DNA of 64,000 nt from Actinomycetota bacterium (GCA_014381945.1 JACNKQ010000030.1:1-64000), one strand, 5' to 3'; positions 23,785-28,438 are shown, counted from the first letter of the stretch. Notes: generated by a model not told the origin, from the sequence alone. Made by a program: numbers and translations.

Positions 23785-24281
23785 CCCGAGACCTCCTCCA
23801 TGGCGACGTCTCGGTCGGCGACACGCCGCCACCGCTCGGGGTCGATGTCACCGCCACGACCGTCGTGCTGGGCGCCCTCGCCTCACGCGACTGGCGACCC
23901 ATGCACCACGACAAGGACTTCGCCGTCGAGCGCAACGGCACGCAGGACATATTCCTCAACACCCCCAACCAGGCCGCCTGGTTCGAGCGCTACGTCACCG
24001 ACTGGACCGGCCCGACCGGACGCCTCGGGCGCATGACGTTTCGCATGAACACATCGGTGTTCCCGGGCGACCACATGGTGTTCGACGCCACGGTCACCGG
24101 CACCCACGTCGATGCCGTCGGCTGCGGCTGGGTGGAACTCGACGTGGCGCTCATGGTCGGCGAAGTGGCCACCACCACCTGCGCCGTGCGGGTGGCGCTC
24201 CCGGTCGACGACGACGACAACCCGTGGAACCGTCGGGGCGATGCGTGGCGCCCCGGCACCGAAGGCGAGGGCAGCACCTGA
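23781..24281 (+). CDS. MaoC-like enoyl-CoA hydratase, catalytic half
   Basis: A 166-aa hot-dog-fold protein translated from a GTG that overlaps the previous stop. RDWRPMHHDKDFA matches the (R)-hydratase motif, with the catalytic Asp and His spaced as usual. It should hydrate the trans-2-enoyl-CoA made by the dehydrogenases, together with the preceding MaoC-like subunit. The stop and the next start share the A of TGATG, so the operon is tightly coupled. Confidence 0.8.
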   Translation: MTRDLLHGDVSVGDTPPPLGVDVTATTVVLGALASRDWRPMHHDKDFAVERNGTQDIFLNTPNQAAWFERYVTDWTGPTGRLGRMTFRMNTSVFPGDHMVFDATVTGTHVDAVGCGWVELDVALMVGEVATTTCAVRVALPVDDDDNPWNRRGDAWRPGTEGEGST

Positions 24282-25390
24282 TGGACCTGGACTTCAGCGA
24301 AGAGCAGGACATGCTCCGGGAGGCGATGGCCGGTCTCTGCGCCGACGCCTCCGACACCGTGCGAACGCTGGAAAACGACCCCCGGGGCTTCGACGACGGC
24401 TTCTGGGGCCAACTCGTCGCCATGGGCCTCACCGGCCTGATGATCCCCGAGGAGCACGGCGGATCGGCGATGGGGCTGCTCGACGCTGCCATCGTCTACG
24501 AGGAACTGGGCCGCAGCCTCGTCCCGTCACCGCACTTCGTGTCGTCCGTGGTCTCGGCCGGGGTGCTTCTGGCCGGTGGATCCGCCGATCAGCAGGCTGA
24601 GTGGTTGCCCCGCATCGCCGCCGGCGAGGCGATCCTCGCCCCGGCGTGCCTCGAGCCCGACAACGGCACCGGCCCGGCGGGCATCCAACTCGCCGCCGTG
24701 CCCGACGGCGACGACGTCAGGCTCACCGGCGCAAAGCGGCACGTGGCATTCGCCTCCTCGGCCGACCGGTTCATCGTGCTGGCACGCGAGCCCGCCGGTG
24801 TAGGCCTCTTCCTGCTCGACCCGACCGCCGATGGCGTCAACCTCACGCAGCAACTCACGGTGGCCTCCGACACGCAGTACCGGGTCGACCTCGACGGGGT
24901 CCGGGTGCCCGTCACCGACCGCATCGGCGACCCCGGCACTGGCTGGGACACCTGGCACGTCGCCATGCTCGACGCCGTGGTGCTGGTCGCTGCCCAGGCC
25001 ATCGGTGCCGCCGAGGCCTCGCACACGCTCGCCACCGAGTACGCCAAGGTGCGCCACCAGTTCGACAAGCCCCTCGGTGCGTTCCAGTCGATCGGCCACT
25101 ACCTGGCCGACGGCATCGCCGCCATCGACGGCGGCAGGGTGCTGGTCCAGCAGGCCGCCTGGACCCGCGACCAGGGTCGCGACATCGCCACGCTCGCCCC
25201 CATGGCCAAGCTGTTCGCCACGCAGACCTGCCGGGACGTGGCCGCCACCACCATCCAGATCCACGGCGGCCTGGGATTCACCGTCGAGTGCGACGCCCAG
25301 CTCTACTTCCGGCGGGCCAAGTCGTGGCAGCTCAACTGGTACGACGACACCCACCTCGAAGACCTCATCGCCGCCGAAATCCTGGACTGA
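24281..25390 (+). CDS. Acyl-CoA dehydrogenase, second ACAD of the operon
   Basis: A 369-aa ACAD beginning MDLDFSEEQDMLREAM. It has GLTGLMIPEEHGGSAMGL, an EPDNG-type substrate loop and the C-terminal IQIHGGLGFTVECDAQLYFRRAK. The C-terminal half is characteristic of the smaller ACAD subunit found in heteromeric enzymes of steroid and aromatic catabolism. It is the last gene of the operon. The last 12 residues (HLEDLIAAEILD) reappear as a DNA remnant at 26870-26914, which marks a tandem duplication of the region just downstream. Confidence 0.9.
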   Translation: MDLDFSEEQDMLREAMAGLCADASDTVRTLENDPRGFDDGFWGQLVAMGLTGLMIPEEHGGSAMGLLDAAIVYEELGRSLVPSPHFVSSVVSAGVLLAGGSADQQAEWLPRIAAGEAILAPACLEPDNGTGPAGIQLAAVPDGDDVRLTGAKRHVAFASSADRFIVLAREPAGVGLFLLDPTADGVNLTQQLTVASDTQYRVDLDGVRVPVTDRIGDPGTGWDTWHVAMLDAVVLVAAQAIGAAEASHTLATEYAKVRHQFDKPLGAFQSIGHYLADGIAAIDGGRVLVQQAAWTRDQGRDIATLAPMAKLFATQTCRDVAATTIQIHGGLGFTVECDAQLYFRRAKSWQLNWYDDTHLEDLIAAEILD

Positions 25391-25408
25391 AGGCCCCCGG
25401 ACGGGGGG

Positions 25409-25825
25409 TCAGAGCACCTCGAGTTCACCCTCGAAGCCCAAGGCGGCGCCATGGGGCCATCGACGGTCGGTGGTGAGCAGTCGGTCGGCGTCGAGGACGA
25501 TGGCCGTAGCGACGACCAGGGCGTCCGGTAGCCGGAGCCGGTTTCCGAACTGGGCCCTGAGCGCAGCCGATTCCACGGCGATGTCCTCGCTGATCGGGAT
25601 CGAAGTCACGGGCGCTGCAGCGATCAGCGAGCGTACACGCTCCACTGCAGACGGCCCCTTTCTCGATGGCCCGACAAGACACTCGGCCAACGCCGTGACC
25701 GGTAGGGCGAACCGCTCCCCCCGGTCCCATGCCTGATCGAGCGCATCGGTTGCGACGCCGTGGTGACCGTCGTCCTCGTCCAGCCAGCCGATGACGACGC
25801 TGGCATCGAGAACGGTCAGTCCCAC
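25409..25825 (-). CDS. vapC: PIN-domain ribonuclease toxin (VapC-like)
   Basis: A 138-aa PIN-domain RNase. The four acidic residues that bind Mg2+ are visible: D7 (LDASVVIGW), E48 (TALAECLV), D101 (LRLPDALVVATA) and D120 (LLTTDRRW). It would cleave tRNA or rRNA when freed from its antitoxin. The start overlaps the end of the antitoxin gene by 10 bp, the standard antitoxin-first arrangement. It is convergent with the ACAD gene. In the duplicated copy of this block near 26915-26930 the toxin gene is missing. Confidence 0.88.
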   Translation of the reverse strand: MGLTVLDASVVIGWLDEDDGHHGVATDALDQAWDRGERFALPVTALAECLVGPSRKGPSAVERVRSLIAAAPVTSIPISEDIAVESAALRAQFGNRLRLPDALVVATAIVLDADRLLTTDRRWPHGAALGFEGELEVL

Positions 25826-26055
25826 TCTTCACGGAGGCGATCGAGTTCGCCGGGCTCCCAGCAACCGGTCATCGCCCCCGCGAACTCCCGGATCGGGTTC
25901 CGCTCTGTCTCGAGGACGATTCGACCCGCGCCGTCGGCGCTGACCACGAGCCGGTCGCCGGCCCCGATACCGGTGGCAGCCAGCGCATCAACGGGGATCG
26001 TGATCTGGTTCTTGCTGCTGACCTTGCAGGTTCGGGGTGCCTTTACTGTTTCCAT
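25816..26055 (-). CDS. vapB: AbrB/SpoVT-type antitoxin (VapB-like)
   Basis: A 79-aa antitoxin. The N-terminal half, CKVSSKNQITIPVDALAATG, is the swapped-hairpin AbrB DNA-binding domain, which should bind its own promoter. The C-terminal half, NPIREFAGAMTGCWEPG and ELDRLREEW, is the part expected to wrap the PIN toxin. It overlaps the toxin gene by 10 bp and follows the lipoprotein gene after 63 bp. A decayed copy of the C-terminal half lies at 26931-27060. Confidence 0.88.
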   Translation of the reverse strand: METVKAPRTCKVSSKNQITIPVDALAATGIGAGDRLVVSADGAGRIVLETERNPIREFAGAMTGCWEPGELDRLREEWD

Positions 26056-26118
26056 GGAAGTAAAGGTAGTCCTCGATCAGGACCTTGTCCAGTGCGGTCC
26101 GCCGCTGGACTGAACGGG

Positions 26119-26679
26119 TTACGGCCCGGACAGCTCGATGCTGCACACCGGTGGACGACCGACGGTCGACCGCCCGCAGGTCCTTGCCGCCTCGTTGATG
26201 CACAGCCAGTCGAGATCCGCCCCCAGGCCGTGTCGCAGTTCCGACGCATCCACGATCCGGTCCCGGCAGGCCTGTCGGACCTCGTGCATGTCAGTCGTGG
26301 CCGCTCCCGGTTCGGTGAGCGAGACCGCTCCGAGGTGCCGTCTCTCGCAGATCTCCCAGTCCCACTGGAGGGACTGTGCCTCGAACCAGTGCGGGGAGGC
26401 GGGGAAGGGCACCGCGTAGTGGCGCTCCACCTCGTCGCTGACAGCGTCACCGGCGTCGATCCCGAGCGCCCTGAGGCAGCCGACGAAGCCGTCGACTGCC
26501 GGACCAACCTCGGACAGGGTCACGGTCCCGTCGTCGGTGATGGTCATGGCCAGATCAAGTGCCTCAGCACTCGAAACCGCACGTTGAGACACAGAACTAG
26601 ATGCGGCCGAACAGCCGGCAATGAGAACGAAAGCGAGTACAACCGACGGGAAACGCAGCATCGCCCTCACAGCCGCCAT
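26119..26679 (-). CDS. Predicted lipoprotein, copy A, upstream of VapBC
   Basis: A 186-aa protein with a signal sequence and lipobox (LIAGC, Cys23), so it should be exported and lipid-anchored. It is a clear paralogue of the protein at 27107-27715: VDGFVGCLRALGIDAGDA here and ADGFVACLRMFGVDAGDA there, followed in both by conserved Trp and four or five similarly spaced cysteines. Function unknown. It sits 63 bp upstream of the antitoxin on the same strand, and the same gene order is seen in the duplicated block. Its ATG lies inside the 3' end of a small leader ORF (26667-26795). Confidence 0.75.
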   Translation of the reverse strand: MAAVRAMLRFPSVVLAFVLIAGCSAASSSVSQRAVSSAEALDLAMTITDDGTVTLSEVGPAVDGFVGCLRALGIDAGDAVSDEVERHYAVPFPASPHWFEAQSLQWDWEICERRHLGAVSLTEPGAATTDMHEVRQACRDRIVDASELRHGLGADLDWLCINEAARTCGRSTVGRPPVCSIELSGP

Positions 26680-26795
26680 CCCGAGTCCTGTGCCGAAACG
26701 CCCTGCGCAGGTGCCACAGAAGAAAGGAGCAGAGTTCCCACGATCAGCCCCGCTGCAGCAACTCGCCGAACCGAATGAGAAAAAGAGCCCGACAC
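26667..26795 (-). CDS. Small signal-peptide-like leader ORF (42 aa)
   Basis: A GTG at 26795 has a strong GGAGG site 5 bp upstream and opens a 42-codon frame ending TGA at 26667. The product looks like a bare export signal: RRVAAAGLIVGTLLLSSVA, then PAQGVSAQDSG. It overlaps the start of the lipoprotein gene by 13 bp in another frame. It could be a leader peptide that couples translation, or the original signal peptide detached by a frameshift: the lipoprotein copy B begins with a similar RRMAAAGGVLCLLAVGC. A weak promoter candidate (TATGAT near 26827-26832) lies upstream. Confidence 0.5.
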   Translation of the reverse strand: MSGSFSHSVRRVAAAGLIVGTLLLSSVAPAQGVSAQDSGWRL

Positions 26796-26869
26796 GCCTT
26801 CCTCCTTCATCTACTTACGCTTTGCATCATACCCCCCCCACACGCGGTGAATGCAAGAGGGCTGAATTA

Positions 26870-26914
26870 CTGGTCCACCTCGAAGACCTCATCGCCACCG
26901 AACTCCTGGACTGA
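26870..26914 (+). pseudogene. Remnant of an acyl-CoA dehydrogenase 3' end
   Basis: This stretch matches the last codons of the ACAD gene ending at 25390: HLEDLIATELLD with its stop here, HLEDLIAAEILD there, with a ten-base deletion just upstream. There is no room for a gene; it is the left boundary of a tandem duplication whose first copy begins at the real ACAD end. Confidence 0.85.
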
Positions 26915-26930
26915 GGTCAGAACAGTCCAC

Positions 26931-27060
26931 TCAGCGGCCGGGGCGCGCCCACTCGTCACGGAGTCGGTCGAGTGCACCGGGTTCGTAGCAGTGGGTGAGG
27001 GCGCCTGCGAACCTCCGGATGGGATTGTCCTCGAGCACGAACCTGCCCGGACCGTCGACC
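26931..27060 (-). pseudogene. Remnant of the AbrB-type antitoxin, C-terminal half only
   Basis: The reverse strand encodes NPIRRFAGALTHCYEPG followed by ALDRLRDEW, matching NPIREFAGAMTGCWEPG and ELDRLREEW of the intact antitoxin at 25816-26055. The AbrB DNA-binding half is deleted, and the PIN toxin gene that should follow is gone. An open frame continues upstream to 27167, but that part is not antitoxin-like. Its position after lipoprotein copy B mirrors the intact block. Confidence 0.82.
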
Positions 27061-27106
27061 CAGCACGCCGGTCGGGGACGCAAGGCCAGGCCATAGTCCA
27101 GTGCGA

Positions 27107-27715
27107 TCAGGTCCTGAAGTCGCCGCACGCAGGCAGGTGGTGTGGCGCCGAGCCGATGTGGTCGCACTGCAGGCTGACGAGCCTGAGGCAGAAGTCGTGG
27201 ACGAACGGGTGCCCTGTGATGAGTGCGTCGAGTCGTTCGGTCCTGTTTCCCTCGAGTTCGACGTCGAGACGACCGGCACCTGCCAGGATCGCCTCGTAGT
27301 AGTCGGAGTCCGACTGTGGCTGGCCGACCGGGTCCTCCTCACCCGTCCGTTCGAGCGACACCATGCCGACGTGGCGGTCCCCGCAGTCCTTCCAGTCCGA
27401 CAGGAAGGACTCGAGGGCGAGCCACCCGGTCGGCCACGGTGGCAGCGACACCCGGAAGGAGAACAGCCCCTCGTCGCGCTCGGCGTCACCTGCGTCGACA
27501 CCGAACATGCGGAGGCAGGCCACGAAGCCGTCGGCGGCGGGTGCCATCTCGACGAGCGTCGGGGTCTCGTCTCCGACGAGGTCCCTCTGCAGCGTCAGGG
27601 CATCGAGCGTCGTACCGGCCGGCGGCTGCTCCGAACCGCAGCCGACTGCGAGGAGGCACAGCACGCCACCAGCGGCTGCCATCCGACGCCATACCGGAAC
27701 CGTTCGTCGATCCAT
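27107..27715 (-). CDS. Predicted lipoprotein, copy B
   Basis: A 202-aa exported lipoprotein with Arg-rich N-terminus and lipobox LLAVGC (Cys26). It is paralogous to the lipoprotein at 26119: shared segments include the GFVxCLR block, WKDCGDRHVGMVSL versus WEICERRHLGAVSL, and a C-terminal cluster of cysteines. Spacing of the cysteines suggests disulfides outside the membrane. Function unknown. It precedes the decayed antitoxin remnant as copy A precedes the intact VapBC pair. Confidence 0.75.
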   Translation of the reverse strand: MDRRTVPVWRRMAAAGGVLCLLAVGCGSEQPPAGTTLDALTLQRDLVGDETPTLVEMAPAADGFVACLRMFGVDAGDAERDEGLFSFRVSLPPWPTGWLALESFLSDWKDCGDRHVGMVSLERTGEEDPVGQPQSDSDYYEAILAGAGRLDVELEGNRTERLDALITGHPFVHDFCLRLVSLQCDHIGSAPHHLPACGDFRT

Positions 27716-27793: not shown

Positions 27794-28438
27794 TCAGCCC
27801 AGCACGCCGGTCGGGCAGGTGAGGCCGGTGCCGCCGAGGCCGCAGTAGCCCATGGGGTTCCTCGCCAGGTACTGCTGGTGGTGCTCCTCGGCGAAGTAGA
27901 AGGGGCAGCGGTCCACGATCTCGGTGGTGATGGGATCGAAGCGGGCGGCGGCCAGCAGCGGGGCGAAGGCGTCGCGGGTGGCCTCGGCGGCGGCCCGCTG
28001 GGCGCTTTCGACGTAGACCCCCGAGCGGTACTGGGTGCCGACGTCGTTGCCCTGGCGCATCCCCATCGTGGGGTCGTGGCCCTCCCAGAAGACCTTCAGC
28101 ACCCCCTCGAGCGAGATCTGGTCCGGGTCGAACACCACCAGGACCGCCTCGTTGTGCCCGGTCAGGCCGGAGCACACCTCCTCGTAGGTGGGGTTCGGTG
28201 TGTGACCACCCGAGTAGCCGACGGCGGTCGTCCACACGCCGGACGTCTCCCAGAAGGCACGCTCGGCGCCCCAGAAGCAGCCCATCCCGACGACCAGCGT
28301 CTGGAACCCGTCGGGGTACGGAGGTGCGATCGGGCGACCGTTGACGACGTGGGCATCCTGCACCGGCATCGGCGTGTCGCGGCCCGGAAGCGACTCGTCG
28401 GGTCCGGGGATCGTGAGGGGCCTGCCGCGGAAGGACAT
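27794..28438 (-). CDS. msrA: Peptide-methionine (S)-S-oxide reductase
   Basis: A 214-aa enzyme that repairs methionine sulfoxide. The catalytic motif GCFWG follows LVVGM, with the nucleophilic Cys near residue 54, then [26 protein letters not shown], which is diagnostic for MsrA, and FWEGHDPT. C-terminal cysteines in [12 protein letters not shown] could act as resolving residues. The N-terminal 40 residues are an extension common in actinobacterial MsrA. No msrB is next to it. Confidence 0.95.

Follow-up and report, generated by a model that had tools for sequence, protein, structure and literature searches.

Probable stacking, by recombination, of alternative alleles at a variable ACAD/msrA junction in a marine actinobacterium

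In a marine actinobacterium (Actinomycetota bacterium, GCA_014381945.1), the junction of the convergent gene pair ACAD/msrA holds a VapBC toxin-antitoxin (TA) pair, a small lipoprotein gene (lip1), a broken antitoxin and a second lipoprotein gene (lip2). It is probable (roughly 70%) that alternative contents of a polymorphic junction have been stacked here by recombination. Across the family the same junction varies: it can be empty, or occupied by lipoprotein genes, a VapBC pair, or an antitoxin that has no toxin partner. The lineage studied here and its relative G001 would share an ancestor in which such contents were stacked rather than exchanged, by recombination at the conserved ends of the two genes. 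An allele like that of a second relative, G005, would have supplied the truncated ACAD'-VapB'-msrA' interval that now lies between lip1 and lip2, and the ACAD' and msrA' tags, short as they are (40 and 29 nt), would be the scars of joining. The window is the whole stretch of 64,000 nucleotides analysed, and it was compared with a genus sample of six genomes, all fragmented assemblies, and with wider sets of 48 family genomes and 395 class genomes.

The left-hand gene, ACAD (plus strand, 24281-25390), belongs to the acyl-CoA dehydrogenase family, carries Pfam Acyl-CoA_dh domains and shows 88-91% amino acid (aa) identity to its orthologs within the genus; its true 3' end occupies 25351-25390. 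The right-hand anchor is msrA (minus strand, 27794-28438), named from its sequence as peptide methionine sulfoxide reductase A, with orthologs in 41 of the 48 family genomes. Between them, the intact pair consists of vapB (VapB1; minus strand, 25816-26055), an AbrB/MazE-type antitoxin (PF04014, E 1e-6; TIGR01439 above cutoff), and vapC (minus strand, 25409-25825), a PIN-domain toxin (PF01850, E 1.6e-16); the antitoxin gene comes first and the two overlap by 10 nt. The predicted lipoprotein gene lip1 (minus strand, 26119-26679) is an ORF with the lipobox LIAGC and 96% aa identity in G001. Immediately upstream, and overlapping its start, is a 47-aa ORF with a signal peptide (minus strand, 26667-26810), which a deletion of ~94 bp joins to lip1 in G001. 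There follow the ACAD' tag, a displaced, non-coding copy of the ACAD 3' end (plus strand, 26875-26914), the antitoxin remnant VapB' (minus strand, 26931-27058), the msrA' tag, which repeats the 3' end of msrA away from the gene and is fused to VapB' (minus strand, 27059-27087), and lip2 (minus strand, 27107-27715), an ORF for a small predicted lipoprotein paralogous to lip1. A Pfam scan assigned no family to lip1 or lip2, and a search of the window's own genome found no further copy of the repeat.

The ACAD' tag matches the end of the window's own ACAD at 38 of 40 nt; the window has no third site of this kind, and 0.00 would be expected by chance. Copy 1 continues after the ACAD end with vapC, vapB and lip1, all on the minus strand; copy 2 continues with the vapB C-half and lip2. 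The two vapB C-halves share 70% DNA identity over 137 columns (E 1e-15), and the two lipoprotein genes 65% over 243 columns (E 5e-25), or 40% aa over 109 in the proteins (E 7e-21). Globally aligned, the two blocks score 213, whereas shuffled sequences average 41 and reach 78 at most. The preliminary description of this DNA was right on these points: the ACAD end recurs and the order is shared at the coordinates it gave, each copy keeps a lipoprotein, the second is without the PIN toxin and the AbrB DNA-binding half of the antitoxin, VapB' being the toxin-binding C-half only, and the common ancestry of the blocks is upheld.

The same description explained the repeat by tandem duplication of one ~1.5-kb block (ACAD end, VapC, VapB, lipoprotein), after which the second copy was stripped of the toxin and of the antitoxin's DNA-binding half. 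The significant homologous pieces, in the same order in both copies, are what such an event would leave. However, the identity between the copies is neither uniform nor higher in the selected genes: it reaches 95% in the non-coding ACAD' tag and 65-70% in vapB and the lipoprotein genes. After a single duplication the non-coding part should have diverged fastest, and the tag shows the opposite. At the identity of the genes, a match of at least 38 of 40 nt has a binomial probability of 1e-4 (if 70%) or 8e-6 (if 65%), and the tag is as close to the ACAD ends of two relatives (39/40 nt in G004, 38/40 in G005). From this uneven identity it follows that the tag became part of the second block long after the gene lineages had split. 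A possible third remnant of the ACAD end lies between vapB and lip1 (26078-26130; CTGGACTGAA-CGGG..), with an uncorrected p of 0.013 among ~30 tests, and is not claimed.

The origin of the remnant also speaks against a local duplication. In G005, an intact antitoxin of 84 aa with its AbrB/MazE half (VapBo; L038:4097-4348) lies between ACAD and msrA with no toxin between them, and a protein search of that genome (completeness 85%) gave no VapC relative at E 1e-6. The window's ACAD'-VapB' junction is 93% identical over 189 nt to the true ACAD-antitoxin junction of G005, and VapB' matches this orphan at 37/41 aa and VapB1 at 27/38. The two VapB copies are therefore not each other's closest relatives, since VapB' is nearer to G005 and VapB1, over its whole length, is nearest to the VapB of G014, a member of another genus; for the lipoproteins, no outside relative closer to lip1 or lip2 than they are to each other was found. 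In the C-half, VapB1 and the antitoxins of G005 and G014 lie at near-equal distances (29/38, 30/40 and 29/38), whereas in the N-half VapB1 matches G014 at 32/39 and G005 matches either at only 11-12/39. The resemblance of VapB1 to G014 is thus even along the protein (30/40 and 32/39), and that of the G005 orphan to VapB1 falls from 29/38 to 11/39, a difference between the halves that gives a Fisher p of 3e-5. Sequence comparison therefore identifies the orphan as a chimeric antitoxin, in which a toxin-binding half like that of the local VapB is combined with another DNA-binding half, and a G005-type allele, not the window's VapB1, as the apparent parent of VapB'. That parent would have had a DNA-binding half other than that of VapB1, since VapB' is nearest to the G005 orphan and the N-half of the latter is unlike VapB1. 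Between the window's genome (G000) and G001, pN and pS in VapB' are 0.073 and 0.108, a ratio that points to weak constraint from 12 changes only; VapB' is expected to be a decaying fragment.

The msrA' tag, which like the uneven identity was absent from the preliminary description, begins where the homology of VapB' stops and lies inside copy 2. It matches the true end of msrA (27798-27826) at 25/29 nt in the window and at 27/29 nt in G001 (p <= 0.001), with 0 matches expected by chance in the window. With this tag at the end of VapB', the segment 26875-27087 reads as a complete but truncated ACAD-antitoxin-msrA interval, set between lip1 and lip2. Copy 1 contains no msrA' tag. Together with the G005 parent of the remnant, which has another DNA-binding half and no toxin, and with a VapB of another genus that is as close to VapB1 as the remnant's lineage in the C-half and far closer in the N-half, this makes duplication and decay of a single local block very unlikely; what stands of that proposal is the shared ancestry of the blocks.

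The alleles of other members of the genus show the junction in several states. In G003 and G004 it is empty, with the ACAD and msrA stops ~20 nt apart. In G001 the order is ACAD, lip1, ACAD', VapB', msrA', lip2 and msrA, with no VapBC, and lip2 has lost its lipobox to an internal deletion. The VapBC insertion is found in one of the six genomes of the genus, the window's own; a DNA-level search found no relative of this VapBC in the others, G005 being covered by the protein search above. Since no strain with lip1 alone or lip2 alone at the junction was found, the donors of the lipoproteins are unseen and the order of events can only be inferred. Several genomes of another genus (g4) have an ACAD-msrA interval of ~1.9 kb, which in G033 contains a large plus-strand ORF (L102:3-1433).

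An older tandem array, predating the split of the genera and since lost piecemeal, would explain part of these patterns if its ACAD tag had recently been gene-converted and the G005 allele had arisen by deletion between the ACAD ends. The window does hold the two VapB lineages together with lip1 and lip2, deletion can occur between direct repeats of 40 nt, and the split between VapB1 and VapBo is about as deep as that between genera. However, conversion would have to affect the tag only, and the array would have to be lost in most genomes, as the lipoproteins are present in 2 of 48 and VapC (E < 1e-40) in 4 of 48; the msrA' tag is also left unexplained. We regard this history as improbable.

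Stacking at the gene ends, the explanation that we prefer, is accompanied by signs of recent exchange. Between 26100 and 27900 the window and G001 are 93-100% identical in each 150-nt bin, against 78-95% in the flanking bins. Silent differences number 9.5 at 233 sites in the lipoproteins and 117.5 at 439 sites in ACAD and msrA (p 2e-14), and this low silent divergence indicates that the block was exchanged recently. By the same comparison, the block lip1-ACAD'-VapB'-msrA'-lip2 was transferred between these lineages after their split.

Movement between species is also what would be expected if the ACAD and msrA 3' ends were attachment sites of a lipoprotein-bearing mobile unit of ~0.7 kb that regenerates the gene end on insertion, like the integrative elements found at tRNA genes. 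The distance from tag to true gene end in G001 (710 bp for the lip1 unit and 739 bp for the lip2 unit) and the uniform orientation of all cargo fit such a unit. Nevertheless, inspection of the ORFs in the interval recognised no integrase or transposase, and two different target sequences are involved where repeated use of one attachment sequence would be expected, so that neither the recombinase gene nor the reused site that mark an integrative element was recognised here. No other copy was found in the genome, viral contigs gave no match, and the unit is carried by only two genomes. This explanation seems very unlikely.

The VapBC pair itself has a separate history. In three genomes of another genus, g6 (G014, G010 and G022), vapB and vapC lie directly downstream of msrA, and the order DsbA-like, TIGR03083-like, msrA, vapB, vapC is that of the window (the first two names resting on sequence recognition). 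Identity to the window's proteins is 77-78% aa for VapB and 60-62% aa for VapC, and the 78% of G014 VapB extends along the full length of VapB1. In two further members of that genus (G034 and G018) the next gene begins within ~30 nt of msrA, so the site is empty. The four VapC matches with E < 1e-40 in the 48 family genomes are all beside msrA, and no msrA match was found within 1.5 kb of VapC relatives elsewhere in the class. The window's VapBC is thus the ortholog of the msrA-linked VapBC of this sister genus, and is best read as a separate, older module. It is likely to be a working, ordinary type II pair, in which a PIN RNase would be held by VapB.

The distribution of the lipoproteins is not tied to this pair. 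Among the 48 family genomes, lip1 and lip2 occur in the window's own and in G001, which is without VapBC, and no lipoprotein match was found at the three g6 VapBC loci or at 13 further VapBC loci of the class. Of the 395 class genomes, 15 gave a match in a lipoprotein profile search. One of these is the window's own; the matches in the other 14 are weak (E 3e-7 to 1e-3), with a C-L-(R)-x-x-G motif and a lipobox in common. At 13 of these distant loci, no gene within 1.5 kb is related to this VapB or VapC. The proposal of the preliminary description that the lipoprotein is fixed to the TA pair, and may be a functional part of the module, is refuted by G001, the g6 genomes and these distant loci. 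Both lipoproteins are instead expected to be passengers unrelated to VapBC. A phage origin was also considered for them and set aside, as viral contigs gave no match. The only find of a wider search of public genomes was NAT100, where the place of the match agrees with G001. Genes of ABC-transporter and HlyD/peptidoglycan (PG)-binding-like type adjoin the distant lipoprotein relatives at L055, L056 and L066. In a domain scan of four neighbours from three distant loci, one proved to be an ABC transporter; the remaining three matched PG-binding, HlyD or biotinyl-lipoyl domains without reaching the curated cut-off. These neighbours hint at a lipoprotein family linked to exporters.

How the scars were made can be stated conditionally: homologous recombination at one end may have been combined with illegitimate joining at the other, or unequal homologous recombination may have acted at the gene ends. 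A more general, and doubtful, possibility is that the msrA 3' flank is a family-specific docking site, where recombination, anchored on tens of bases at the 3' ends of neighbouring genes, would time and again add, stack and remove antitoxin and TA alleles that have no recombinase of their own and in some cases carry swapped DNA-binding halves. On the whole, the region appears to reflect mostly ordinary evolution. It offers an allele-by-allele view of the turnover of a chromosomal TA site, from empty site through full pair and orphan antitoxin to remnant, and shows that a seeming decayed tandem duplication can consist of stacked versions from different relatives; it also removes a proposed lipoprotein component from VapBC.

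Compared with known systems, the pair is an ordinary type II VapBC, with a PIN-domain toxin and an adjacent small AbrB/MazE antitoxin that has a DNA-binding N-half, is encoded first and overlaps the toxin gene. Few type II pairs are as widespread as AbrB-PIN pairs (PMC2701414), and what differs here is the location downstream of msrA, which is conserved within this family only. The complete VapB without a toxin at the ACAD/msrA junction of G005 resembles the orphan antitoxins often found in the genomes of marine bacteria (PMC12654330), except that it is chimeric, with the same toxin-binding half as the local VapB and a different DNA-binding half. By their weak profile matches, lipobox and C-L-(R)-x-x-G motif, lip1 and lip2 resemble the small CLR/CMR-motif lipoproteins of Acidimicrobiia, a membership that is drawn from weak similarity; some of the latter lie by ABC exporter and HlyD/PG-binding genes, whereas lip1 and lip2 are solitary and without exporter genes. 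Finally, homology-facilitated illegitimate recombination (PMC3240628), in which one end integrates through homology and the other is joined illegitimately, would leave short homologous tags like those of the window. For the window such a process is one that we infer, and the truncated interval differs from it in bearing tags at both ends.
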